Shown piece after piece: positions 607-54,319 of a stretch of DNA of 64,000 nucleotides; within the stretch, counting starts at the first letter, position 1, and the number at the start of each line of letters is the position of its first letter. The notes below the pieces were generated by a model. It saw only the letters and a list, made by a program, of their open reading frames with translations, did no database searches and had not been told where the DNA came from. A program made the position numbers and the translations under genes. Origin of the DNA: Phycisphaerae bacterium (GTDB lineage Bacteria > Chloroflexota > Anaerolineae > 4572-78 > J111); the NCBI GenBank assembly GCA_028285035.1, contig JANQQF010000133.1, positions 83,622 to 147,621 of the forward strand, in the 5' to 3' direction.

Positions 607-902
607 AATATGTTCCTAATAGTTTACCAAAGTATTATACCATACTCGTTGAAATGCCTAAGACGGTGTAGAAAATTATTGAAATAAGGTGGCAATATTT
701 AGCTCTGGTTATCACTTTCTCTAGTTTACTTAACCGAAACTTGCAAAAATTTAAGGGCGTAGTACCATGCGGAAAATTGAATATCGCTAGATAAATGATT
801 GAGGTGCTGATAGTTTTTAAGATCGCGTCATTGGGGACACATTGTTGCGGTGATGATAAAGCACTATCAGGATTGGAAACTTTTTAGGAAGGAGTGTTTG
901 TC

Positions 903-1142
903 ATGAGTCTAAAATCTCAGGCTCGAATCTTATTGCAAATTATTGTAAATTTTGCTAATAAGGACAATCTAGGGCCAGGAAAAAGGGCAAACCAGACAAT
1001 TGATTCGCTATATCCCGAAATCCGGCAACTCGAAAAAAAGTTAGCGACTGCCCCTACTCGCCCCTCACAAGTTGTTCGGGGAAACTCTCGGATGTTGGAA
1101 CCGATGACTGAACAGCAAAAAATTATGGATATATCGGGATAA
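903..1142 (+). CDS. Small hypothetical protein (79 aa)
   Basis: Not recognised. The ATG at 903 is chosen over a GTG at 894 because an AGGAAGGAG ribosome site (886-894) lies 8 bases before it. The product is basic in its first half, has no membrane segment or cysteines, and has a possible helical stretch (PEIRQLEKKL). It stands alone, with a strong terminator directly after the stop and about 300 bases without a gene before it. I see no clear promoter in 607-893. The good ribosome site and terminator argue for a real gene. Confidence 0.5.
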   Translation: MSLKSQARILLQIIVNFANKDNLGPGKRANQTIDSLYPEIRQLEKKLATAPTRPSQVVRGNSRMLEPMTEQQKIMDISG

Positions 1143-1296: not shown

Positions 1297-2019
1297 CTAA
1301 TCATTAGCAATGGTATAGCCACGACGTGGAATAGTCAGAATAAACTTAGGTTTGCTGGGATCCGCCTCAATTTTATTGCGAATATTTTTGATATGCATTC
1401 GCACTAAATCAGGGCTGCCGCTTTCTGATGGATAGTCCCACACTTCTTGTAGCAGACGGTCGCTTGTGAAAACTTCTTCTGGATGCATCATCAGATGATA
1501 CAAAAGATCGAATTCAATTGGTGTTAGCTTTGCTTGTTTTTCATCTGTTTTAGCCGTGTAACTGGTTTTATCAAGGGTTAAGTTGGACGCTTTGAGTTTT
1601 GAAGTTGGGGGAGCGGTTGGAGGCATAACTCTTCGTAAAATTGCTCTGATACGTAGCTGCAGTTCTTCAAGATTGAACGGTTTGGTAAGATAATCGTCTG
1701 CTCCGGCACGCAGTCCCGCAATACGATCCTCAGGTCGTCCTAAAGCGGTTAGAAATAGGATTGGAACATTAGCCAGGGCGGGATCCATCCGAAGTTGATT
1801 GCAGGTCTCCAGACCATCCATACCTGGCATAACAACATCCAAGACGATCAGATCTGGGGGATGACGTCGAGCTTCCTTAATCGCCTCAATCCCACTGTAA
1901 ACAATATAGACTTTGTATTGTTTTCTCAATGTTGCTTCAATTGATTTTGCTACATCAGGATCATCATCCACAACTAATACACGAGGAGGGACTTCCTCTT
2001 GTGATGAGGAAATGCTCAT
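1297..2019 (-). CDS. OmpR/PhoB-family response regulator
   Basis: A 240-aa DNA-binding response regulator. The receiver domain (about 12-128) has the acidic pair at D18-D19, phosphoacceptor D61 in LDVVMPG, T91 and K113. A winged helix-turn-helix output domain fills 140-238, with the typical wing sequence PRRGYTI at the end. No histidine kinase lies next to it, so it is an orphan regulator whose partner and targets are unknown. A good promoter lies 33 bases upstream of the ATG. Confidence 0.93.
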   Translation of the reverse strand: MSISSSQEEVPPRVLVVDDDPDVAKSIEATLRKQYKVYIVYSGIEAIKEARRHPPDLIVLDVVMPGMDGLETCNQLRMDPALANVPILFLTALGRPEDRIAGLRAGADDYLTKPFNLEELQLRIRAILRRVMPPTAPPTSKLKASNLTLDKTSYTAKTDEKQAKLTPIEFDLLYHLMMHPEEVFTSDRLLQEVWDYPSESGSPDLVRMHIKNIRNKIEADPSKPKFILTIPRRGYTIAND

Positions 2020-2051
2020 AAATCGTTAGCCTCTTAATTTAAGAAAAGATA

Positions 2052-2080
2052 ATTATAGCATAATGGACCGCGAGATACAA
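2052..2080 (-). promoter_or_regulatory. Sigma-70 promoter of the response regulator
   Basis: On the minus strand, TTGTAT (2080-2075), a 17-base spacer and TATAAT (2057-2052). An imperfect GGACC...GGTCC inverted repeat overlaps the -35 region and could be an operator, but this is only suggestive. Confidence 0.65.
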
Positions 2081-2203
2081 TGGTCCAAGAATATAAGTTA
2101 ACTTCATATTAATTTACAAATGATAGAATGATTTGACAATAGGATAATAAGCACGGGTAAGATAAGTAATTCTTTGCATCTCTAAAGTTAGTTAAAAAAG
2201 GTG

Positions 2204-2260
2204 TTGACATTTTACTAATATGAGTGGTATAATACGTGGTATATACTGGTATAGTACCAC
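2204..2260 (+). promoter_or_regulatory. Consensus promoter and candidate operator of the GntR-B12 regulator
   Basis: TTGACA (2204-2209), 18-base spacer, TATAAT (2228-2233). Immediately downstream, at about the transcription start, GTGGTA (2236-2241) and TACCAC (2255-2260) form an inverted repeat, and TGGTATAGTACCA (2247-2259) is a tighter internal one. Its position predicts autoregulation by the gene that begins at 2277. Confidence 0.75.
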
Positions 2261-2276
2261 TTAGTACAGGTAAAAT

Positions 2277-3248
2277 ATGATGCAGTTGAATAAGCAACAT
2301 CCTACACCGATCTATCTTCAACTTAAAGAGGTGTTGAGGAGCCAAATAGAGCAGGGTGTTTACTTTTCACATCAAAAATTACCATCAGAGCGTGATCTCT
2401 GTCAGCACTATGATTTAAGCCGTATGACGGCGAGGCGTGCGTTACAGGAATTGATTGATGATGGGTTAGCTTATACCAAGGTTGGTAAAGGTACATTTGT
2501 TAGTGAGCGGCCCAGTACAAAAAAAATCTCAACCATTGCAAAAAATTACTTGCAGGGTTTTGATGTAAAAAACGGGTTAACCTTAGATAACGCTCATAAT
2601 CAGCTGACCGAGCATTTACTAAATTTTGAGACAGATGAGGTAGAGAAACTTGTTAATAGTTGTATTGCTACATTCTCATTTGAAGTTGTAGCAATAGAGC
2701 TTTTCCCCTCAGTTATTCATCAGTTGGAAAAGCTCTGGCATCAAAATGATATAGACTTACTTACACAGAACTATGCATTGACCACATTACGTTCTCATTT
2801 GACTGCAATGGTCAATGCTACGGCAACCGTTGGAACGGGACCAAAAGCAATATTAGGCGCAGTTCTGGGAGATCAACATGAAATGGGGCTGTTGACGCTG
2901 GCACTTTGTTTAAGACAACGTGGCTTTAAGGTCATTTATATTGGTCCAAATATAAATACAGCCCATTTGAACAAGGTGATGAACAAACTCAAACCTGACC
3001 TTGTTTGTATCTCAGCTGCGACTCAACAGGCAGCAGAGACAACTATAGAGATAACTCGAGAACTTTATACACAATCGGTGAGCCAAGATAATCAGGCAAG
3101 TGATGAGATAAATCAAAATGCACTAATTACCTTTGGTGGGGTTGCCTACTCTCAAAACCCGGTGCTTGTTTCATCGGTTTCTGGAATTTTTTTAGGCTGT
3201 ACGATTGATGCAGCACTTGTAAATATCGAAAAGTTTTTTCAGATTTAG
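2277..3248 (+). CDS. GntR-family transcriptional regulator with C-terminal cobalamin-binding module
   Basis: The N-terminal 75 residues are a GntR winged helix (KLPSERDLCQHYDLSRMTARRAL, split here as PSERDL at 36-41 and SRMTARRAL at 48-56; wing GKGTFV). Residues about 110-185 are helical and resemble the B12-binding-2 cap: W154-H155 matches the Trp-His pair that covers the upper face of cobalamin in CarH. Residues 190-323 form a B12-binding Rossmann fold with GDQHEMG (198-204), a full DxHxxG base-off/His-on motif with H201 as predicted lower ligand, followed by a GG near 279. The cap motif Wx9EH of CarH reads Wx9QN here. Inference: a cobalamin-responsive, possibly light-responsive, repressor. 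The start could equally be ATG 2280. Neighbours give no target. Confidence 0.85.
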   Translation: MMQLNKQHPTPIYLQLKEVLRSQIEQGVYFSHQKLPSERDLCQHYDLSRMTARRALQELIDDGLAYTKVGKGTFVSERPSTKKISTIAKNYLQGFDVKNGLTLDNAHNQLTEHLLNFETDEVEKLVNSCIATFSFEVVAIELFPSVIHQLEKLWHQNDIDLLTQNYALTTLRSHLTAMVNATATVGTGPKAILGAVLGDQHEMGLLTLALCLRQRGFKVIYIGPNINTAHLNKVMNKLKPDLVCISAATQQAAETTIEITRELYTQSVSQDNQASDEINQNALITFGGVAYSQNPVLVSSVSGIFLGCTIDAALVNIEKFFQI

Positions 3249-3280
3249 GCTTTTTTAAGGAAGACACAGGCTAACGATCT

Positions 3281-3991
3281 ATGTTATCAGAAGACACGAA
3301 AATGCCATTATTTCCTCTTGAATTAGTGCTATTTCCAGGAATGATGTTGCCTCTACACATTTTTGAGCCACGCTACAAGGCCATGATCAAAGAATGTTTA
3401 GGATCAGGTCAGCCATTTGGTGTTGTGCTTGTTAAACGAGATACAGATAAACAACAGGCTGATGTTAAGAACAGAGCCTCTTTTGGAGAAATGTACAATG
3501 TAGGGACGACGGCTCATATTACGGCTGTTGAGCATCTTGATGATGGCCGTATGAACTTGATCACAGTGGGACAGGATCGATTTGTTATTAAGGATGTCAA
3601 TGTAAGCGAAGAGGATTTTTTCGTCGGTCAGGTTGATCCATTTCCGATGGTGGATGCTATTCAGCCAGAGAAAGCTGAGTTTTTGACCGGGAAATTGCGC
3701 CCGATTGTACAACGGTACATTGAAAATTTGGCGCAAGCCTCAGGTGAAAATCTATCTGACACTAATTTACCAACAGATCCTGTAGCTTTGGCCTATCTGG
3801 CTGGAACGGCTATTCAGGGACCGTTAGCGGATAAACAACGATTATTATCAACACAGTCCCTACAGAAGTTGATTTTGAAAACATTAAGTCTGTTGGACCG
3901 AGAAGACCAAATTCTGGCTTATATGTTGAAGGCGCACAATCAGCATCATCAAATTGAGCGGTTACCATTTGTCGATTACTCGCTCAACTAG
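3281..3991 (+). CDS. LON substrate-binding domain protein
   Basis: A 236-aa protein made of a stand-alone LON N-terminal domain. MPLFPLELVLFPGMMLPLHI and FEPRYKAMI are the signature strands, and there is no AAA ATPase or Ser-Lys protease domain. Such proteins are thought to bind peptides or act as adaptors; the activity is unknown. It lies 32 bases after the GntR-B12 gene on the same strand and may be cotranscribed with it. ATG 3302 (MPLF) is an alternative start. Confidence 0.85.
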   Translation: MLSEDTKMPLFPLELVLFPGMMLPLHIFEPRYKAMIKECLGSGQPFGVVLVKRDTDKQQADVKNRASFGEMYNVGTTAHITAVEHLDDGRMNLITVGQDRFVIKDVNVSEEDFFVGQVDPFPMVDAIQPEKAEFLTGKLRPIVQRYIENLAQASGENLSDTNLPTDPVALAYLAGTAIQGPLADKQRLLSTQSLQKLILKTLSLLDREDQILAYMLKAHNQHHQIERLPFVDYSLN

Positions 3992-4221
3992 CTTCAAATA
4001 TGAGAACATTTGAAGTAATTAAGCTGAAAATGCGTAAAAATTGAGTAACAAACTAATTATCGATCATCAATGCAGCCAAAGAAATGGCTCTGACCTTTAA
4101 CAACAAAGGCAAATGCTCGTTTTTGAATCTGGCACTTGATGTGAATTATCAAGGATTTTTTGAGAATAGATTGCCAACCTATACCTTGGGAAATCCCTAC
4201 TAAAAAGTGAGGTGATGAATC

Positions 4222-5145
4222 ATGACAACAACATGGGCACCCGAAGAAGCGCTTTTCAGACTGAGCATTGCGGACTTGGCTGCAACAGCCCCTGTTTCAC
4301 CCGCCGAAGAAAAGCGGTTGATTCAAGTGATGATTGCTGGACAAGCGGCAAAAGCTCAGTTAGAACAAAATGATACATCAAATGATGAAATGCGTCAGGA
4401 ACTCTTAATCAAAATCGACGAGGGACTAAAAGCACGCAGCAAATTGATTGAGGCCAATGGCCGATTGGTGATAAGTATTGCTAATCGCTACACTGGCCAC
4501 GGTCTAAGTTTAGCTGAATTATCCCAAGAAGGTGTTTTGGGCTTAATCCGAGCGATTGATAAATTTGATGCTGAAAAAGGCGTTCGTCTGAGTACTTACG
4601 CCAGCTACTGGATACGTCAAAGTGTTAGCCGGGCCGTGGCTGTTCAAACCCGGGTCATCCGATTACCGGTTCATAAGGTTGATCATTTAGGCAAAATCAA
4701 GCGTGTAATGGGCCAATTAACCCAAAAGCTTGGGCGTGTGCCAGAGCTAGAAGAGATTGCAGCACAAACTGGGGATGCTCCTGAGCAAATCCATGAGTTG
4801 CTTCAAGATGGGCAAGAGACACTCAGTCTTGAAGAGCCTGTGGGTGATGACGGGGCTACTTTAGCTGATTTTGTAGAGAATGATTTGACTCAAGCTTTAG
4901 AGGATCAGGTCGACTCTGTATTGCTTGAAAATGAAATTCGACAAGCACTTGGCCGCCTAACAGCTCGCGAAAGTCGCATTGTAGAGCTTCGTTACGGCTT
5001 ACGAGATGGTCAACCGTTAACGCTACAGGATGTGGCTGAGCGTTTTGGTTTAACGCGTGAGCGTATTCGCCAGATTGAGAAAGAGGCTTTGGCAAAATTA
5101 CGACGACCAGATCATGCTAATCGTTTGATGGGATTTGTTTCCTGA
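4222..5145 (+). CDS. RNA polymerase sigma-70 family factor (RpoD-like, group 2)
   Basis: A 307-aa sigma factor with region 1.2 at the N-terminus (ADLAATAPVSPAEEKRLI), region 2 (NGRLVISIANRYTGHGLSL, AIDKFDAEKG, STYASYWIRQSVSRA), region 3 and region 4 (LTLQDVAERFGLTRERIRQI). It lacks the long region 1.1 of a primary sigma factor, so an alternative RpoD-like factor is likely. The start is set by GTGAGGTGATG, about 7 bases before the ATG. The 230 bases before it (3992-4221) show no clear gene or promoter. A strong terminator follows the stop. Confidence 0.92.
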   Translation: MTTTWAPEEALFRLSIADLAATAPVSPAEEKRLIQVMIAGQAAKAQLEQNDTSNDEMRQELLIKIDEGLKARSKLIEANGRLVISIANRYTGHGLSLAELSQEGVLGLIRAIDKFDAEKGVRLSTYASYWIRQSVSRAVAVQTRVIRLPVHKVDHLGKIKRVMGQLTQKLGRVPELEEIAAQTGDAPEQIHELLQDGQETLSLEEPVGDDGATLADFVENDLTQALEDQVDSVLLENEIRQALGRLTARESRIVELRYGLRDGQPLTLQDVAERFGLTRERIRQIEKEALAKLRRPDHANRLMGFVS

Positions 5146-5174
5146 AAACTTTGAAGTATTTGTGTTTCTGAATC

Positions 5175-5207
5175 AAAAAGCCTTCAGCATAAAGTCGAAG
5201 GCTTTTT
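5175..5207. terminator. Bidirectional terminator between convergent genes
   Basis: AAAAAGCCTTC (5175-5185) pairs with GAAGGCTTTTT (5197-5207) around an 11-base loop, with T tracts on both strands. It serves the sigma factor gene and the minus-strand cyclase gene. Confidence 0.88.
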
Positions 5208-5219
5208 TCTTTTCACTTG

Positions 5220-8200
5220 TTACAGTTGTTTGACGTTTTTGTGTTCAGCAATGTTGAGATAGTTTTTCCGGGTTTCACAATCCTCAATTTCATTGGCCTG
5301 ATTATCTATCAGAGATTTCGCCTGATTTAAGGCTGCATCTGCCTCTTCTAATCTGTTGTTTTGTTTTAAGATCTTAAAACAAATCCAATAAACCAATATT
5401 GGATTTTCCATACCAGCTATACCATGCTCATCAATAAAGGCGGCGACTTGTTGGATTCTATTGTAGGCTTGCTCGATTTTATTAGCTTCAAAATCAACTT
5501 GGGCTAGATAAGCAGCGTCTTCCATTTCAGCGGCATCTTGCCCTAGTTTTTGCTCAAGCTTCATTGCTCTTCTAAAAATATTTTCAGCTTGTTCTAAATC
5601 CTTTTGGGCCGTTAGAACCAAACCGTAATAGCTTAACAAAACTCCCTCGGCCCAGGGATCACCAATTTCTTCCAGTATAATTTTTGCTTCTTCCAGAAAC
5701 ATCTTTGCCGTAACATAGTCATTAAGTCTATAGTGAAGATGTCCAAGCTGAGTCAATGTATGCGCCTCACGCCGGGGATCTTCCATTGCTTGAAAGGAGG
5801 TTAAGGCAGTCTCTAATAGGTGTCGAGCTCGTGTGTAGTCACCAAGCGAAATATGTATTCCTCCCATGTTATGTTGAGTAATTGCTTCGCCGACACGATC
5901 ACCAATTTTTTGGTGTAGCGTCATGGCTTGCTCGAAATAGCTGTATGCTTTTACAGGGTATCCTGTGTCATAATAGACTTGCCCAATATTACGTAACCCT
6001 CGACCATAACCAATTTGCTCGCCCACCTCTTCTCTCAAGGTTTGGGCCTCTTCAAAAAAATAGAGGGCGACTTCATAATCGGTTTGATAATGGGCGACAA
6101 CGCCAAGACTATTTAGTGCTTCTGCCTCTGCATTTTTGTCGTTGTACATATTTGCAATTTGTAAAGCACGTTGTAAGTGTCCATAAGCATCATTATATTC
6201 GCCTGTTAGATAGAGTAATTTCCCCCACTGATTATATGCTGCCCCTGCTAGAATTTCATCTCCTGCCTCTTCAGCTAGTTTGGCCGAACGCTCAATCATT
6301 TCTAATCCTGATGAGTAATCTCCCGCTGTTTCATAAAACCTTGCCCACTGTCGAGCGGCCAAAGCCCGGGCTTGATTATCATTGAGCGCCTCTGCGATAA
6401 CGCCTAGAGTTCCAAGATCTTCTCCTTCATGTTCACGCTGCCCAAGAAGATTATACAACTTTACTCGGTCCAAAAGGGCTTGCCAATATTCTGGGGAAAT
6501 AATTGAGATATCTTTTTCAGTGGTGGCTCGTTCGGTGATAAAGGATAATAATTCGCTGTAATAACCTACGGCGGCTCGAATCGCATATTCACGACTCGCC
6601 TTTTGGGCCGCCGCCGTAAGATAATGCACTGCTTTATTCAAATCATTGCTGCGGCCAAAATGGAAGGCGAGTCCCTCGATTTCATCAGGGAGCAACTCCT
6701 CAAGAACAGTTCCAACCGTGGTATGAAGCTGGCGTCGTTGGGCGAGAAGAAGCCCTTCATAGACAACCTCTTGTGTGATTACATTATGAAAAACATACTC
6801 CCACTTTGGGGCGGGGGCTTCCAAACGCAAGAGCTTTTCCATTTCTAATTTTTCTAATTGAGACGGCAGTAGAAATCTGGCACTAGTAACAGGGTGTACT
6901 TTTGAGAGCAAGATTCGTTGAAATTTGGCCCCGATGACCGAAGCAATTTTTAATGTTAACTTTTCAGCTTCAGATAAACGGTCTATACGAGACAAAATAA
7001 CATCTTGTACGGTATCAGGCAGATCAAGCGTTTCAGGCAACCTAAATTGCTGTTCAGATTGATTTTCTACCAAGCTAAGCAGAACGCCCGTAATCTCCTG
7101 TAGAAAGAATGGATTGCCTTGCCCCCGTTCTAATAGGATGCTCATTGCTTCAGCAGGTAATGATTTGTCAGCCAGTAACAATTTAATTAACGCCTGACTG
7201 TCCGTCTCAGATAAGGCTGTTAGTCGAAGCGCTTGAGTAAACGGGAGATTGTGAAGTGGCTGGATGACTTGTGCATAAGCCTCGTTTAGGGGGCGATGAA
7301 CTAAAACGAGGAAGAGTGGGCAATCTAACAATTTTTGACCCAAGTATGTAGCAAGAGCAATAGATAACTCATCTGCCCAATGGATATCTTCAAGTAGAAT
7401 GAGCAAAGGCCCACGTTCAACCTGATGGCGCAAAACGGCCTCAATTAAGGCAAAGGTGTTGTCACGCCGTAGGTCCCCTGGAATACCTTGGGTAAACTTA
7501 TTTTCAGGGGCATCAAAGCCCATAACGTCAGCCAGTAGGGGTAATCGATCAGCCCAATAGTTTGGTTGATCTGGCGGGTCGGGCAATTCGGCTACCCGGC
7601 TGGCTAAACGGGCGAGCTTTCGCCCCGAGTCTAGGGTGGGATCAAGGCCAAATATGGCACTTAAAATTTCTCGCCACGCTTGATAAGGAATTTGACGTCC
7701 GTAGCTTATACATTTGCTGCCATAGCCAACCTGGCCTTTTTGAATCCATTGTCGAACTAATTCAGCTGTTAAGCGGCTTTTGCCTAAACCAAGCTCACCT
7801 TCAATAAAAAGAAGCTGAAATTTTCTGTTGAGAACGGCACTAGTTACCTCAGCTATCTGAGATAACTCTTGATCTCGACCAATAATTGGATCTTCATAAG
7901 ACAAATAACGGGTGATAAACTCATCTTGTGAGTCTTGCTCACCTTTTACTTGATACGCAGGCACACTTTTTTGTTTGCCTTTGAGCGATACTTGTCCTAA
8001 GTCGTCAAGGATAAAGTGATGACCAGCTCGTTCTTTTATCCGTTGAGTAACGAGAATTGTTCCCGCTCGACCATATTGCATCAACCGAGCGGCTAAATTA
8101 ACTTGATCGCCGATGACCGTGTATTCGCGCCGTGTTGGTGCACCAATTGGACCCGCAAAAATTTGATCTTCTGTAATCCCAATGGACACACGAAGGTTTT

Positions 8201-9260
8201 GCTCCCGAGCCACGATTTGAAGAGAAAGGGCAAAGGCGACTGCCCGCTGGGCATCATCTTCATGCGAAAATGGAGGGGCCCCAAATAGAATAAGGACAAC
8301 TGTACCCTTATCATCCACTGCTACTTTACCAAGCGAACCTTCATAACGATAAAGCAGCTCTTGTGTGGCTTGGATAAAATTCTGTAACTGTTCTCCCGCA
8401 TTGGGCGCTTTATAATCTAACCCACCGATGCCGATAAAAAGAATGGTCATTCGCCGAAGTTCAGCTAACCACTCAGATTGTTTGTCCAAACGGGCTTTAA
8501 TTGCTCCCGGGATATAACACTGTAAAGCGGCCTCTGCAAGCTGCCGTTTTTCCCAGCTTAGCTGGCTCCAATCAAGGTCTGGTATTTTTTCAAGATTAAT
8601 TTGCTGAAAGGGGTGTTCGAGTTTGACAAAGCCGTCATCTAATGATGTTGCTTCAAAGAGAGTTTGAACCTCGGCCCAGGCCTGTGGACTTAGAATCGTC
8701 TGTGACGGCTGTGCTTTATGCTCCGCTAAAGAAACTTGGACCAATGGGTCCCCCCCTACCACATACTCCCAACGTCCCAAAACGCCGCCGATATTGGCCT
8801 CAAGAATTTTTCCCGCACCAATCCCCACTTTCATTGATAACGAAACATTGCCTTGTGGCGTCTCAATTACACTAAAGTTTTGCATTTCTTTTTGCATTGC
8901 CAACGCGCAAGCACCCGCCTGATGCACGGCCATTTGCATTGGCACATCTTCAGCAGGAAATAGGACGGTGATAGCATCACCCGAAAATTTTACAACCTGC
9001 CCTTGATGATTATGGACAATTTGGATCATTTGCGTGAAGTAGCGATTGATCAAAAAGGTGAGACTCTCTACACCATTTGGACCTGCTTGATTGAGCAGTT
9101 CGCTAAGGGGGGTAAAGCCTGAAATATCTGAAAATAGGATTGCAGCAGAGAGGTGGCGAGAGGTAGGTTTGGTTAGAGGTTGGGGTCGATGATATATCGC
9201 CTTGGCCACAGGCCCTGGCACATAAATGGCTAATTTTTGCAATAAATCCGGCGAGGCCAT
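5220..9260 (-). CDS. Adenylate/guanylate cyclase with AAA-type ATPase and TPR repeats
   Basis: A very large cytosolic protein (1346 aa from ATG 9260; a TTG at 9278 adds 6 residues but has its purine tract too close). Domains: class III cyclase C1 (about 36-195), cyclase C2 (about 268-435), P-loop ATPase with GELGLGKS (488-495), then about ten TPR units (about 840-1330). C1 keeps both metal aspartates (D45 in FSDISGF, D95 in FSGDA) and lacks the Asn-Arg pair. C2 has lost the metal aspartates but keeps D385, N388 and R392 (GDQVNLAARLM). The layout resembles mammalian soluble adenylyl cyclase. It should make cAMP or cGMP under control of a ligand or partner sensed by the ATPase/TPR part. No membrane segment is evident. 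Confidence 0.9.
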   Translation of the reverse strand: MASPDLLQKLAIYVPGPVAKAIYHRPQPLTKPTSRHLSAAILFSDISGFTPLSELLNQAGPNGVESLTFLINRYFTQMIQIVHNHQGQVVKFSGDAITVLFPAEDVPMQMAVHQAGACALAMQKEMQNFSVIETPQGNVSLSMKVGIGAGKILEANIGGVLGRWEYVVGGDPLVQVSLAEHKAQPSQTILSPQAWAEVQTLFEATSLDDGFVKLEHPFQQINLEKIPDLDWSQLSWEKRQLAEAALQCYIPGAIKARLDKQSEWLAELRRMTILFIGIGGLDYKAPNAGEQLQNFIQATQELLYRYEGSLGKVAVDDKGTVVLILFGAPPFSHEDDAQRAVAFALSLQIVAREQNLRVSIGITEDQIFAGPIGAPTRREYTVIGDQVNLAARLMQYGRAGTILVTQRIKERAGHHFILDDLGQVSLKGKQKSVPAYQVKGEQDSQDEFITRYLSYEDPIIGRDQELSQIAEVTSAVLNRKFQLLFIEGELGLGKSRLTAELVRQWIQKGQVGYGSKCISYGRQIPYQAWREILSAIFGLDPTLDSGRKLARLASRVAELPDPPDQPNYWADRLPLLADVMGFDAPENKFTQGIPGDLRRDNTFALIEAVLRHQVERGPLLILLEDIHWADELSIALATYLGQKLLDCPLFLVLVHRPLNEAYAQVIQPLHNLPFTQALRLTALSETDSQALIKLLLADKSLPAEAMSILLERGQGNPFFLQEITGVLLSLVENQSEQQFRLPETLDLPDTVQDVILSRIDRLSEAEKLTLKIASVIGAKFQRILLSKVHPVTSARFLLPSQLEKLEMEKLLRLEAPAPKWEYVFHNVITQEVVYEGLLLAQRRQLHTTVGTVLEELLPDEIEGLAFHFGRSNDLNKAVHYLTAAAQKASREYAIRAAVGYYSELLSFITERATTEKDISIISPEYWQALLDRVKLYNLLGQREHEGEDLGTLGVIAEALNDNQARALAARQWARFYETAGDYSSGLEMIERSAKLAEEAGDEILAGAAYNQWGKLLYLTGEYNDAYGHLQRALQIANMYNDKNAEAEALNSLGVVAHYQTDYEVALYFFEEAQTLREEVGEQIGYGRGLRNIGQVYYDTGYPVKAYSYFEQAMTLHQKIGDRVGEAITQHNMGGIHISLGDYTRARHLLETALTSFQAMEDPRREAHTLTQLGHLHYRLNDYVTAKMFLEEAKIILEEIGDPWAEGVLLSYYGLVLTAQKDLEQAENIFRRAMKLEQKLGQDAAEMEDAAYLAQVDFEANKIEQAYNRIQQVAAFIDEHGIAGMENPILVYWICFKILKQNNRLEEADAALNQAKSLIDNQANEIEDCETRKNYLNIAEHKNVKQL

Positions 9261-9278
9261 AATCAAGGGGTGCCCCAA

Positions 9279-36834: not shown

Positions 36835-37839
36835 CTACTCCGGCATATTATATTCAATATACCATTCAGCCTCAAGCTTGGGCATCCGTGCTTCGACACG
36901 AGTGGCCCACGGGGTGGCGCGATAATTGACTGTGTCGGTAAGCACACGCATTCGGCTTACGGCAATGGTGCTGAGGAAGTGATCACGAACCGCAGCATCT
37001 GCAATGTCAAGGGCCTCACGCCACACTGCTCGACCGACGACCACCCCGCTAGCCCCAGCCGCGCAGGCGATCTCAGTTTGAAGTTGGAACGTTGGAAAAT
37101 CTACACCCGCGCTGAGCAGTACCCAAGGAATGCCTGCTGTAATATTTGATAATTCACGACAATACGTGGTCATTTTTCCTTGATCCGTTTCGTGCCGGGC
37201 CTCAGTGGGAAATTCGACCTTGAGAATGTCTGCCCCCAAGGGCACTAAACGACGCGCCGACTCCATAATAATTTCTGGCCGCTGCTGGGCGAAATCGGGA
37301 TCAGTTTTTCTTTGTTTTGAGTCGAGAGGGTAACAGATAGGTTCTAACATAAAAAGAATCTCGTGTTTTTCACATTCAGCCGCCAGGGCTTGGACCGTCG
37401 CTTCTTGTTCTGCTACGTTTGGGGCTTCCGGGTGATAATAAAGCAGCAACTTGACAGCCGCTCCCCCCATTCGCTTAATTGCACCCACACTCCAATCAGG
37501 CAACAATTCAGTATTCTCCCGCATAGCCTTGCTGCCATAGCTGGATTTTTCGCGAGCCACAGCAAAGCCAACATTGCCCGGCAAGGCCCCCGCTGTAATC
37601 ACCGGTCCGGCACTATAAAGTGGATCGAGAAGAACGCCACTTGAATGGGGTCCCAAGGCTTGGGCGATGCGAATTTTTTCGGCAGCAATCCGCTGCCAAC
37701 TGACTTCCACTTCACCCAGCGTTTGGGTCAACGCGGCCACAAAACCATCACGATGGTCAAAGGCAGCCACGGCAAACACCCCAAACTCATTGGTTAGTTG
37801 TTGCATACAGCGAATTTTGCCGAGCGAAAGAGGGGACAT
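36835..37839 (-). CDS. LacD/YihT-type class I aldolase
   Basis: A 334-aa TIM-barrel aldolase of the tagatose-1,6-bisphosphate/sulfofructose-phosphate aldolase family. The Schiff-base lysine is predicted at K207 (ADILKVEFP); FAVAAFDHRDGF, VKLLLYYHP (K130) and VVVGRAVW are family segments. In this inositol operon it is a candidate for cleaving 2-deoxy-5-keto-gluconate 6-phosphate to DHAP and malonate semialdehyde, in parallel with the class II enzyme at 51494; LacD-like action on another ketose phosphate is the alternative. GGAG lies 8 bases before the ATG. Confidence 0.85.
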   Translation of the reverse strand: MSPLSLGKIRCMQQLTNEFGVFAVAAFDHRDGFVAALTQTLGEVEVSWQRIAAEKIRIAQALGPHSSGVLLDPLYSAGPVITAGALPGNVGFAVAREKSSYGSKAMRENTELLPDWSVGAIKRMGGAAVKLLLYYHPEAPNVAEQEATVQALAAECEKHEILFMLEPICYPLDSKQRKTDPDFAQQRPEIIMESARRLVPLGADILKVEFPTEARHETDQGKMTTYCRELSNITAGIPWVLLSAGVDFPTFQLQTEIACAAGASGVVVGRAVWREALDIADAAVRDHFLSTIAVSRMRVLTDTVNYRATPWATRVEARMPKLEAEWYIEYNMPE

Positions 37840-37902
37840 AGAAATTCTCCAGCTAATAGATTTGGAATTTTAACCGTATGGATAATGAATATTTTGGTGT
37901 AT

Positions 37903-38048
37903 ACAGTAAATGGTAAACAGTAATTGATTATTATTTACTCGGACATAGAAGACTAAACCAAAGTTCTGTCCTGTGAACGGCTGTAAAGCGCTGGGAAAGT
38001 TATGATTGGGTCAGAAAGTCATTTACCATTTACCAATTACTAATTACC
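37903..38048. repeat. Heptad repeats with inverted arms
   Basis: Left: ACAGTAA ATGGTAA ACAGTAA (37903-37923). Right: ATTTACC ATTTACC AATTACT AATTACC (38021-38048), the reverse complement type. They bracket about 97 bases with no gene, between the aldolase and iolE genes. Confidence 0.75.
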
Positions 38049-38053
38049 AGCTT

Positions 38054-38992
38054 TTAGAGTCCAATTGAGGCCAGATACGCTCGATTGCGACGGGCACTTT
38101 CTTTAGGTTTCCCCATCCCAGGTAGAACATCCTGCTCAACCAGAATACCTCCATTATAATCATTTTCACGAAGCCAGGTCAAGACGGCGGGAAAATCAAC
38201 ACAACCCTGCCCCAACTCACAAAAGACGCCTTGACCAACAGACTCAAAGTAATCCCACTCATTTTGCCGAGACTGGGCAGCGATTTGAGCATGGCAATCT
38301 TTGAAATGCACATACCATATTCGCTGGGCAAAGCGATCAAGCCCATCGATAACTTGATCACACCCAGTTACCCCTGCCCCAAACACATAGTGCCCAGTGT
38401 CATAGGCTAAGCCCAACAGGTCAGGATCCGTTAAATCGAGCAGGCGGGCAATCTCATCAGGCGTTTCTACATACCCCGCGCAGTGATGGTGGAATACGGT
38501 ACGAAGCCCAGCCTCATCTCGTACTGCTTTTGCGATTTGATTGGCTCCTGTCGCAAACACCTGCCAGTTTTGTTCACTCAAACCTAGTTCCGAGGTGATC
38601 CGGCCCGCCTGTTTTGTTCGTGTCGGATTGGAACCGTTTTTATCAGCCAAAACCAGAAATGGCTGACGAGGCTGCCCAACACTGACGGCTGCCATCAACT
38701 TAGCAATTTTAACCGTTCGCGCTATGCCTTCATCGTGGGCCGCAGGATTAACTAAATTAACATCAACAAAATCACCCCACATTTCGACCTTGCGTTGTTC
38801 TAGCTCTGCTTTAAGGGCCTCTGCCTCTGTCGGCATAAAGCCCCAGTCCCCCAACTCGGTTCCGGTGTATCCCGTTTCGACTAGTTCATCCAACATTTGC
38901 GCATAGCCAATCCGCTCACCAGCTAATCCTTCAAACTCAAGGGTGCCCCACGAGCAAGGCCCATTTCCAACTAAAAATTGTTTGTTTGACAT
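38054..38992 (-). CDS. iolE: Inosose dehydratase-like sugar isomerase/epimerase (copy 1)
   Basis: A 312-aa AP-endonuclease-2-type TIM barrel. The start is ATG 38992, since TTGGAG (which begins an upstream in-frame TTG) is really its ribosome site. Typical IolE segments: [52 protein letters not shown] and EQDVLPGMG; the conserved Glu, Asp and His residues are metal ligands. It dehydrates 2-keto-myo-inositol in the pathway. A second copy lies at 53380. Confidence 0.9.
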
Positions 38993-39007
38993 CTTTGTCT
39001 CCAATTC

Positions 39008-51493: not shown

Positions 51494-52351
51494 CTAAGCG
51501 CCTAACCTTCCAATTGACCCCAACATCTCCATACTGGCCTTAATCTCATTTGCCATCGCTTCCTTCCCGACGTGCATAATATCTCGTACCTCAGTGGTTG
51601 TTGGGTCATCGCTTAAGGCCGCGTGGATCGATTGCATATAAGCCCGGCGTACTTTGGAGGCGATGTTGATTTTGGCAATACCAAGGGTGATGGCTTTTTG
51701 GATCTGATCAACCGGAATACCCGTGCCACCGTGCAACACAATTGGCACATTCGCTTGCTGACGAATGGCTTGTAAGCGTTCCAGGTCCAGCTTCGGTTCT
51801 TTCTTGTAGAAGCCGTGCGCATTACCAATCGCCACGGCTAGCGCATTTACGTCTGTTTCCTGAGCGAAGCGAGTGGCCTCACCCACATTGCTCAAGGTCG
51901 CTTCATGCTCGCTGACAGTAAGGTCATCCTCCACCCCCTGAATTCGGCCCACTTCCCCTTCCACAGAGACACCTACGGCGCGGGCTGCCTCGACGACCCT
52001 CTTTGTGATCTGAATGTTTTCGGCCAAAGGGTGATGTGATCCATCGTACATCACCGAGGTGTAGCCCGCTCGGATACATTTCATCGCCATTTCAAAGGAG
52101 TCACCATGGTCGAGATGAAGCACGATTGGCGTTTGATATTTTTCGACCAACGCCTTAGCCATACTGGTGGCTACGGCTGGCTCAAAATATCGCGCTTCGG
52201 CTGATGAGGTAGAGACGATAACTGGCGATTTCATCTCAGCCGCCGTACGAATCACCGTATCCATCATCTCAAAATTAGCGACGTTGAAGGACCCGACGGC
52301 ATAGCCACCTGCTTCAGCCGCTTGAAGAACAGATTTTAATGAAACGAGCAT
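51494..52351 (-). CDS. iolJ: Class II fructose-bisphosphate-type aldolase (IolJ-like)
   Basis: A 285-aa zinc aldolase. D81-H82 (VLHLDHGDSFEMA) hold the catalytic Asp and a zinc His; YDGSHHPLAENI, EGEVGRIQG, GNAHGFYKKEP and LHGGTGIP complete the site. In B. subtilis IolJ cleaves 2-deoxy-5-keto-gluconate 6-phosphate; the neighbouring iolC and iolE genes support that role, although a GatY/KbaY-like activity is possible. It starts 2 bases after iolC copy 2. Confidence 0.88.
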   Translation of the reverse strand: MLVSLKSVLQAAEAGGYAVGSFNVANFEMMDTVIRTAAEMKSPVIVSTSSAEARYFEPAVATSMAKALVEKYQTPIVLHLDHGDSFEMAMKCIRAGYTSVMYDGSHHPLAENIQITKRVVEAARAVGVSVEGEVGRIQGVEDDLTVSEHEATLSNVGEATRFAQETDVNALAVAIGNAHGFYKKEPKLDLERLQAIRQQANVPIVLHGGTGIPVDQIQKAITLGIAKINIASKVRRAYMQSIHAALSDDPTTTEVRDIMHVGKEAMANEIKASMEMLGSIGRLGA

Positions 52352-52353
52352 AT

Positions 52354-53373
52354 CTATGACCTTTTCATAAGTCTATCCTGCAAAAATGTCTCAACTTCAT
52401 CCAACGTTGGCATTGCAGCAGCACAGCCGTGTCGGGTGACCACCAAAGCCCCGCACGCGTTGGCGAATTGAGCTGCCTTCATCCAGTCAGAACCTTTCGC
52501 CCAACTGTAAATCAGCCCGCTGGCAAACGCATCGCCTGCCCCAACGGTGTTTACAACCTCGACTGGAAACCCTGATACATTGATGGGCTGGGTCTCTCGG
52601 GCAAAGATGGTGACCCCCTCAGCCCCTCGTTTGAGAATCAACGCAGTGAGATTAGGGTGCTGTTCAAATAGGGCTGGTAGTTGATCATCTAAGGCGGCTT
52701 TTTGATTAGCTGTCACGCGTTCGCCTGACATAACATTATCGGCCTCAAGCGAGAGGGCCGCACAAAACTCCTCTTCCGTCCCAATGACCACGTTTAGCCA
52801 CGGCCACAAAGTGCGCTGGGCTGAGCCAAAAGCACGAGGGTGAGTCCACTGGTCGGGGCGTAAGTCAAGATCGTGGAAAATCGTTAAGCCGTGGGCTTGG
52901 GCCTGCTCGGCAGCAACCAAAGTCGCATCACGACAACTGCCTCGGCTCAAAGCGGTGCCTGATAACAACAAGGCTCGACTATGCTCAAAGGGCAAGGTCA
53001 TAACATCATGTATGTCAAGATGAATGTCTGCCGGATTTTCACGATAAAAAACTAGCGGGAATTTATCGGGCGGCTGAATGCCCAGGACAGCCAAACCTGT
53101 TCGGGTACCTACTTTGGTGGGGATGTAATCGGTGACCACCCCTTCCTTTTGCAGATAGTTACGAACAAATTTACCAACCTCATCATCGCCAACGGCGGTA
53201 AAGGCGGCTGATTGAAGCCCCAGGCGGCTGGTGCCAATGGCGATGTTGGTTGGGCTACCACCAACGCTGGTTGAAAAACTCTCTATTTCGATAAACGGGG
53301 CACCGAGTTGCTCTGAAAAGAGGTCCATTGAGACCCGCCCCAAGGTAATTAAATCAAGGTTTTGCTGGCTCAT
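52354..53373 (-). CDS. iolC: 5-dehydro-2-deoxygluconokinase (PfkB family), copy 2
   Basis: A 339-aa PfkB kinase. ITLGRVSMDLFSEQLGAPF, GGSPTNIAIGTSRLGL and NTVGAGDAFASGLIYS are the diagnostic segments. It is clearly paralogous to the product at 41457 but diverged throughout. The gene lies between iolE copy 2 (6 bases away) and the class II aldolase gene (2 bases), a tight operon. Confidence 0.9.
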   Translation of the reverse strand: MSQQNLDLITLGRVSMDLFSEQLGAPFIEIESFSTSVGGSPTNIAIGTSRLGLQSAAFTAVGDDEVGKFVRNYLQKEGVVTDYIPTKVGTRTGLAVLGIQPPDKFPLVFYRENPADIHLDIHDVMTLPFEHSRALLLSGTALSRGSCRDATLVAAEQAQAHGLTIFHDLDLRPDQWTHPRAFGSAQRTLWPWLNVVIGTEEEFCAALSLEADNVMSGERVTANQKAALDDQLPALFEQHPNLTALILKRGAEGVTIFARETQPINVSGFPVEVVNTVGAGDAFASGLIYSWAKGSDWMKAAQFANACGALVVTRHGCAAAMPTLDEVETFLQDRLMKRS

Positions 53374-53379
53374 TGTGGG

Positions 53380-54279
53380 TTACAATCCAATCGAGCGTAA
53401 ATAAGCCCGATTTCGGGCAGCGCTTTCTTTCGGTGCGCCCATTCCGGGCAAAACATCCTGCTCAACAACCACCCAATCGTCATAGCCGATGGCTTTAAGT
53501 GCTTCTAACACCCCAGCAAAATTAACAGCCCCCTGGCCTAATTCGCAAAATACGCCAGCCCCAACACCCGTGGGACCATCCCATCCTTCCGCCCGAGCTT
53601 TCGCTGCAATATTCGCTTCATAATCTTTGAAGTGAACGTGCCAGATGCGATCAGCAAATTGGTGAATCGCGGCGATTTCATCATCCCCGCCCCCCAACCG
53701 CCAGTGACCCGTATCAAAGACCAGGCCAAGTACATCTGAGTCCGTCATCTTCATTAAACGGGCTGTTTCCTCAGGTGTTTCGACCCAAGTGCCTGTATGG
53801 TGATGCATTACCGTGCGCAGACCCGTCTCTCGTTTCACTGCTTCGGCAACACGCGTCGCCCCTTTGGCAAAGGTTTCCCATTGCGCGTCATTCATTCCAT
53901 GCTCTTCAGTGATGCGACCGGTGAATTGGTTACGCATTGGATGGGCATAGGGGCTGTCTCCCAAGACGATGATGTTGTCTGAGCCGCCAACTGCCGCGAG
54001 AAGCTTTGCTGTACGAACGGCCTCGGCCTCATTCTGAGCGTGGTTGGTCTCATCAATTAGCGAGACGCTAACCCACGATGCCAACAACTTTAGGTTGCGT
54101 TTTTCTAGCTCTGGCCACAGTACGTCAGGATTCGTGGGCATAAATCCCCAATCCCCTAACTCTGTCCCAGCATAGCCTGTTTCTTGCATTTCATCGAGGA
54201 CTTGCGTGTACCCACCTCGATCCCCTTCAATATTTTCTATGACACCCCAGGAGCAGGGCGCATTTGCTAGTTTTATCAT
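53380..54279 (-). CDS. iolE: Inosose dehydratase-like protein (copy 2)
   Basis: A 299-aa TIM barrel. [66 protein letters not shown] and EQDVLPGMG match IolE. ATG 54279 is used, since GGGAG lies 6 bases upstream. It diverges from copy 1 in the region after [13 protein letters not shown], so substrate preference may differ. Confidence 0.9.
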
Positions 54280-54319
54280 GTTGACTCCCAAATGATTGTT
54301 GAATTTATTCCTGGCAAAT

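Follow-up and report, generated by a model that had tools for sequence, protein, structure and literature searches.

What signal is read by a transcription factor whose DNA-binding head and effector part come from unrelated families, and which genes answer to it, is the question raised by one gene (positions 2277–3248) of a 64,000-nucleotide stretch, hereafter the window, on contig JANQQF010000133.1 (assembly GCA_028285035.1) of an Anaerolineae genome of the Chloroflexota. Its product is a YvoA/HutC-type GntR winged helix joined to a CarH-type cobalamin-binding domain, a combination first noticed in an original prediction made from the letters alone, and this fusion is real and conserved. We consider it about an even chance (roughly 0.5) that the protein is an autorepressor that depends on cobalamin and governs a sigma-factor operon, CarH-like in its working but not a CarH.

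Domains, fold and distribution of the regulator

Three Pfam families had been expected in the protein. GntR (PF00392) was matched at residues 13–75 (E 1.1e-16, 60.6 bits for a cut-off of 27) and B12-binding at residues 190–297 (E 3.5e-13), but the match to B12-binding_2 at residues 108–161 stayed below its cut-off (20.4 versus 23 bits). No MerR family was among the 11 Pfam matches of the regulator, and up to an E value of 1 these included neither an aminotransferase family nor UTRA, the name of the chorismate-lyase-like effector domain of the GntR HutC subfamily, the tail being matched by B12-binding. The nearest proteins by sequence were YvoA for the N-terminal head and Thermus CarH for the C-terminal tail. 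In structure comparisons, YvoA showed 47% identity to the head with a root-mean-square deviation of 1.0 across residues 2–78, and the CarH module showed 18–21% identity to that of the regulator. The predicted model superposed on CarH, and the top fold matches of the module were CarH and the photocobilins. The C-terminal helical bundle and Rossmann part, the lower-ligand histidine and the tryptophan cap are shared with CarH, or class I LitR (Thermus thermophilus CarH, PDB 5c8d and 5c8e). In contrast, the MerR head, the EH pair, the GxxW glycine and the GxxxP proline of CarH are all absent from the regulator, which has a GntR head.

A homologue search found 170 proteins in total, and the residue counts given below cover the 120 of them that were listed. 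Both Pfam domains were present in 117 of these, with no GntR match in P0117, P0119 and P0120, and the organism names, where given, were Chloroflexota or Chloroflexi, Anaerolineae, Anaerolineales or Anaerolineaceae. Among the sampled genomes, the family was confined to one order, where 8 of 25 genomes carried it; class-wide, the same 8 were recovered among 396 genomes (E values up to 1e-60). The window protein sits on a long branch of the family tree, which has three such branches. When residues 100–323 were used alone as a query, in a search for the origin of the module, one other protein was returned.

A scan of the genome contigs with the single sequence yielded zero relatives, and an alignment-based scan yielded 58 loci, of which seven were full relatives; six of the remaining 51 were inspected. 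The match was limited to the GntR head in L044 and L046. In the other four (L047, L052, L053, and L058) a GntR frame of 254–276 aa has a distinct corrinoid-type frame of 218–274 aa directly behind or overlapping it, so that these are neighbours and not fusions. These four loci belong to Actinomycetota or Geothermincola, and such unfused neighbours could show how a fusion might arise.

Residues of the cobalamin module and the question of light

In a gap-free stretch of the alignment with CarH, W154-H155 fell on W131-H132, Q164-N165 on E141-H142, and H201 on H177, with H201 opposite the histidine of the CarH sequence GERHEIG. The B12 motif E/DxHxxG ... GG is present as D199-Q-H201-E-M-G204, S246 and G287-G288. 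As anticipated, H201 stands at the lower-ligand position and W154 at the cap position, and both are widely kept (113/120 and 108/120, respectively), as are D199 (120), G204 (116), G288 (119), and N165 (101). H155, which had been paired with W154 as an upper-face residue, was found in only 18 homologues and is not a feature of the family. Position 164 is Gln in 52 and His in 41.

The lower-ligand histidine has been replaced in part of the family. H201D was found in seven members, all of which also carry W154C, Lys164, Thr246, and Ser or Cys at position 287. In a tree of 117 homologues, built after omission of three short rows and with the motif and Trp columns excluded, the motif changed three times and the tryptophan five times. 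Tryptophan was missing from all ten tree rows with a broken motif (10/10), and was lost in two rows with the motif intact. The remaining members seem to use the tryptophan and the histidine for one and the same cofactor, a view that the linked loss supports in kind, and the concerted loss in the H201D clade suggests that the cofactor is held by the other members. As a separate observation, P0038, P0039, and P0087 carry G204W and have lost Trp154, with H201 retained.

The CarH motif Wx9EH does read Wx9QN in the window, as originally predicted, and the EH pair was found in 0 of the 120 homologues. The GxxW glycine was likewise found in none, its place being taken by Glu in 117 (Glu151 in the window), whereas the GxxH glycine was present in 43, window protein included, and the GxxxP proline in four. 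The complete light signature formed by these four elements was found in no homologue; the window protein has ExxW, QN, GDQH and GPNIN, of which only GDQH fits. CarH is defined in a review by Wx9EH and the B12 motif jointly (PMC8156234), and the four-part signature is that of light-responsive cobalamin modules according to SignatureFinder (PMC11796333). Since Wx9EH and the published signature are both absent, the regulator is not a CarH by the review's definition and lacks that signature. Because the residues that hold the adenosyl group in CarH are replaced family-wide, corrinoid state or supply is more likely than CarH photochemistry to be the trigger.

It is possible, though doubtful, that the protein is an adenosylcobalamin (AdoCbl) photoreceptor, in which a dark AdoCbl oligomer would repress and light would cleave the Co-C bond and switch the sigma-factor operon on, the cap tryptophan and Gln/His-Asn replacing Wx9EH. 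CarH itself forms an AdoCbl-dependent tetramer that light takes apart. The best fold matches and the conservation of W154 and H201 are consistent with such a sensor, and the counterpart of H132 is dispensable, being Arg, Gln, and Tyr in the light sensors CtMerR, SasPcob, and AbDPcob, respectively (PMC11796333). The case against light thus rests on the lost EH pair and glycine, together with the rare GxxxP proline, and not on H132; CtMerR and the photocobilins, which respond to light, keep Trp...EH and E/DxH, whereas EH is absent from the regulator family.

Genome content was compared between 8 carriers of the gene and 17 non-carriers, the 25 genomes of the order, all of them drafts of unstated completeness. 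A canonical MerR-type CarH with GxxW-x9-EH was found in four (G002, G005, G006, and G007) of the seven carriers examined, G216 being left out, and these paralogues showed 23–28% identity to the window module. The CarH frame of G002 has its start roughly 0.6 kb away from crtB, on a contig that also carries a photolyase gene, and that of G005 lies beside a photolyase gene. No canonical CarH, crtB or photolyase was detected in the fusion carriers G001, G003, and G004. Neither photolyase (5/8 carriers versus 8/17 non-carriers) nor crtB (3/8 versus 11/17) was associated with presence of the regulator gene. Every carrier except G003 has an adenosyltransferase of one family or the other, suggesting probable synthesis of AdoCbl by 7 of the 8, as a photoreceptor would also need. 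With modest confidence, this pattern of markers favours a sensor of cobalamin state rather than of light. The earlier caution that photochemistry or ligand may differ is upheld, as the EH pair is absent from every listed homologue. The lost signature and the canonical paralogues both weaken CarH-like photochemistry. No carotenoid or B12 gene besides the regulator was found among the 14 Pfam-scanned window proteins (positions 1–20,100), as had been stated for the adjacent genes; CarH is tied to carotenoid genes, whereas the regulator is tied to a sigma-factor operon.

As a further observation, the MerR-type CarH proteins of G002, G007, G005, and G006 (L157, L158, L159, and L160, respectively) are open frames of 430–471 aa that continue past the cobalamin module into an additional C-terminal part.

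Operator, promoter and gene order

A tandem operator, TGGTATAYACTGGTATA, overlaps or trails the promoter in all eight testable loci (Table 1); G004 was left out of this count, because its contig ends too soon. The operator upstream of the gene is exact in the window and in G001, G002, G005, G006, G007, and G216, and has one mismatch in G003. The core units are spaced by 10 bp and the extra unit of the window by 12 bp. TGGTATA occurs 12 times in the window versus 5.1 expected, three copies being those at 2225, 2237, and 2247, and only 0.2 operator matches with up to three mismatches would be expected by chance in the window alone. One additional site was found in eight genomes when at most one mismatch was allowed (G002:C193, within an 82-aa frame). 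Two mismatches added ten further sites, three of them the same operators on the opposite strand, and a backward control gave four sites at up to two mismatches. Because the tandem operator occurs almost only at the regulator gene, the predicted autoregulation is strongly supported.

Promoter-like sites in 2000–5300 were as frequent as in shuffled sequences (8 versus 7.7), and the site at 2204–2233 was the sole one to match all 12 consensus positions. TTGACA was found at a similar distance in all eight loci shown. An inverted repeat had been noticed in this promoter and it does exist (2223–2235/2249–2261), but what is conserved in the operator is a direct repeat (8/8 loci), and the inverted arm TACCA was found in 4/8. 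The operator of the GntR family is the palindrome NyGTNxACNy, to which exceptions with direct repeats have been described (PMC4494728).

Arg39 and Arg49, kept in 117 of the listed homologues, correspond to the two arginines by which NagR recognises the GG of its site (PMC4333415), and the operator half-site holds TGGT. The head, the two arginines and the TGGT half-site are thus common to the regulator and to YvoA/NagR and DasR of the HutC type, which differ in having a chorismate-lyase-like effector domain where the regulator has its cobalamin module (PMC4494728). CarH heads are placed one per 11-bp direct repeat, three in tandem (PMC8156234), and the CarH operator resembles that of the regulator in its tandem repeats about one helical turn apart over the promoter (11 bp in CarH, 10 bp here). 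By analogy, a CarH-like assembly may form on the operator.

A looser pattern, used in search of a second regulon target, gave 20 hits in 14 genomes versus 24 in a backward control. Seven of the 20 were known operators, and among the 13 others only L169 (G216:C43:15557–15575) lies outside every frame of at least 50 aa. This TGGTATA/TGGTCTA pair is located 57 nt before a 487-aa frame and may be a second target or due to chance.

The order of the regulator, LON-domain and RpoD-like sigma factor genes was the same in all nine loci, although the sigma gene is cut off by the contig end in L001 and L005 and is read as two frames in L006. The LON and sigma genes had been missed in the original prediction. 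The gaps in the window are 32 nt between the regulator and LON genes and 230 nt between the LON and sigma genes, and in L007 the regulator and LON frames share 8 nt. No terminator-like site was found on the + strand in 2000–5300. The only + strand promoter-like site between operator and sigma gene (3064–3092) lies inside the regulator gene and has a 9/12 match, the level of shuffled sequences.

Proposed mechanism, its alternatives and its setting

We propose that GntR heads bound to the tandem TGGTATA half-sites at the −10/start region would shut a strong promoter, which drives the regulator gene and, presumably, the genes of the LON-domain protein and the sigma factor. The CarH-type module would hold cobalamin with His201 as the lower ligand, and its assembly would depend on the cofactor. 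If the upper ligand then changed, or the cofactor were lost, the assembly would loosen, the promoter would become free and the level of the sigma factor would rise. Rather more tentatively, the family may be a B12-based transcription factor class of its own, seen to date within a single Chloroflexota order. Here a GntR head would sit on a CarH-type module whose rebuilt upper face (Glu151, Trp154, Gln/His164, and Asn165) would sense some cobalamin state different from photolysed AdoCbl, and the regulator, acting at its tandem-repeat operator, would set how much RpoD-like sigma factor is made.

Several points weigh against this proposal. The closest structural neighbours of the module are photoreceptors, and absences carry little weight in drafts whose completeness is unstated. 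The linked losses of motif and tryptophan amount to two or three events, too few independent pairs (p 0.5). Direct repeats like those of the regulator are also bound by the GntR proteins NanR (TGGTATAW), which is of the FadR type, unlike the regulator, and NagQ (TGGTATT), neither of which is described there with a cobalamin module (PMC4494728), and the operator therefore does not prove a CarH-like assembly. Finally, the LON–sigma pair is found with the same neighbours, and without the regulator gene, in G306, G280, and G205, and thus does not need the regulator.

This last result is also what would be expected if the regulator controlled only itself, the LON and sigma genes being neighbours with promoters of their own, a situation that we regard as unlikely. 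The 230-nt gap and the operator copies elsewhere, which are not above control, would fit it as well, but the missing terminator, the shuffle-level match of the sole intervening promoter-like site, the frame overlap in L007 and the constant gene order all argue for co-transcription. Moreover, the gap before the LON gene in the gene-less G205 retains TTGACA and a damaged operator, which we interpret as left over from loss of the gene; the regulator having been cleanly gained was considered as well, but this damaged operator points to loss there. Neither TGGTATA nor TGGTCTA was found in the corresponding gap of G306 and G280. Five more distant genomes encode a 70–74% identical sigma factor, with neither a LON nor a regulator gene in the stretch fetched.

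It is improbable that the module is a mere oligomerisation or partner-binding scaffold independent of any cofactor, as in CarA or class II LitR, since, although Wx9EH is missing as in CarA (PMC8156234) and the seven H201D members have lost the ligand and several motif positions, H201 and the motif glycines are kept in the window protein and in most homologues, and the concerted loss suggests a cofactor in the rest.

No description of a GntR/CarH-type cobalamin-module fusion was found in the open-licence literature searched. A GntR protein and a MerR/B12 protein are listed as two separate genes in PMC6016940, and the GntR types named in PMC4494728 (FadR, HutC, MocR, YtrA, AraR, and PlmA) include none with a cobalamin module. 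Light-type modules fused to helix-turn-helix domains of unnamed type are reported by SignatureFinder (PMC11796333), and the GntR case could sit in its network. The MocR/PdxR proteins also join a GntR head to a large cofactor-binding domain, assemble head to tail and use direct repeats (PMC5320631), but their domain is aminotransferase-like and binds pyridoxal phosphate, where the regulator has a cobalamin module. CarH-type modules and GntR regulators were already known; what is new is the trio with LON and sigma genes and the tandem operator. In Streptomyces, the B12-module regulator LitR is paired with LitS, a sigma factor of the extracytoplasmic function type for carotenoid genes. This tie to a sigma factor is like that of the regulator, but the sigma factor here resembles RpoD and has no carotenoid gene nearby.

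If the proposal is correct, the B12 module of CarH tolerates transfer onto an unrelated DNA-binding head with a tandem-repeat operator retained. B12 control would then extend through the sigma factor to further genes, and a GntR-based switch for B12 or light could be made from the protein. The family offers a natural series, in which the lower ligand is kept with the adenosyl cap rewritten and one clade has lost both, so that the residues turning a B12 protein into a light sensor become testable.

Table 1. Features of the regulator locus, in window coordinates.
Feature	Position	Strand	Basis or remark
Divergent OmpR-type response regulator, neighbour, not claimed for the operon	1297–2019	−	Pfam
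Sigma-70 promoter: TTGACA (2204–2209), 18 nt, TATAAT (2228–2233), TG before −10	2204–2233	+	12/12 consensus positions
First TGGTATA repeat, sharing bases with the −10 box; extra unit of the window, outside the conserved core	2225–2231	+	Repeat search
Conserved operator core TGGTATATACTGGTATA, two TGGTATA units (2237, 2247) 10 bp apart	2237–2253	+	Exact in window
Palindrome TGGTA-TAG-TACCA on the second unit	2247–2259	+	TACCA inverted arm in 4/8 loci
GntR–cobalamin-binding fusion regulator, 323 aa	2277–3248	+	Open reading frame, Pfam, homologue search, structure model
GntR winged helix (residues 13–75), with Arg39 and Arg49 at the places of NagR Arg38/Arg48	2313–2501	+	Pfam, alignment
Helical-bundle part of CarH-type module (residues 103–181); W154 (2736–2738), Q164-N165 (2766–2771)	2583–2819	+	CarH alignment, model
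Rossmann part (residues 190–321); D199, H201 (2877–2879), G204, S246, G287-G288	2844–3239	+	Pfam, alignment, model
Stand-alone LON substrate-binding-domain protein, 236 aa	3281–3991	+	PF02190, E 3.3e-40; 32 nt after regulator
RpoD-like sigma factor, 307 aa, regions 2, 3, and 4	4222–5145	+	Pfam; third in row

Beyond the trio, an OmpR-type response regulator gene was also found upstream in L001, L002, L005, and L007 and in the non-carriers G306, G280, and G205, but not in L003. A small conserved protein without a Pfam match is encoded by an 82-aa frame at 894–1142 (+); related frames occupy this position in L001, L002, and L007 (34–57% identity) and also in G306, G280, and G205. Behind the sigma gene, a 1352-aa cyclase/AAA/TPR protein is encoded at 5220–9278 (−) in the window, and also in G306, G280, and G205; L002, L007, and L070 yielded no relative of this protein, and there the next conserved gene directly follows the sigma gene. 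Farther away, the N-termini of two sets of neighbouring frames at 36835–39004 and 51494–54291 (−) resemble, by eye, those of iol-type sugar/inositol catabolism genes.
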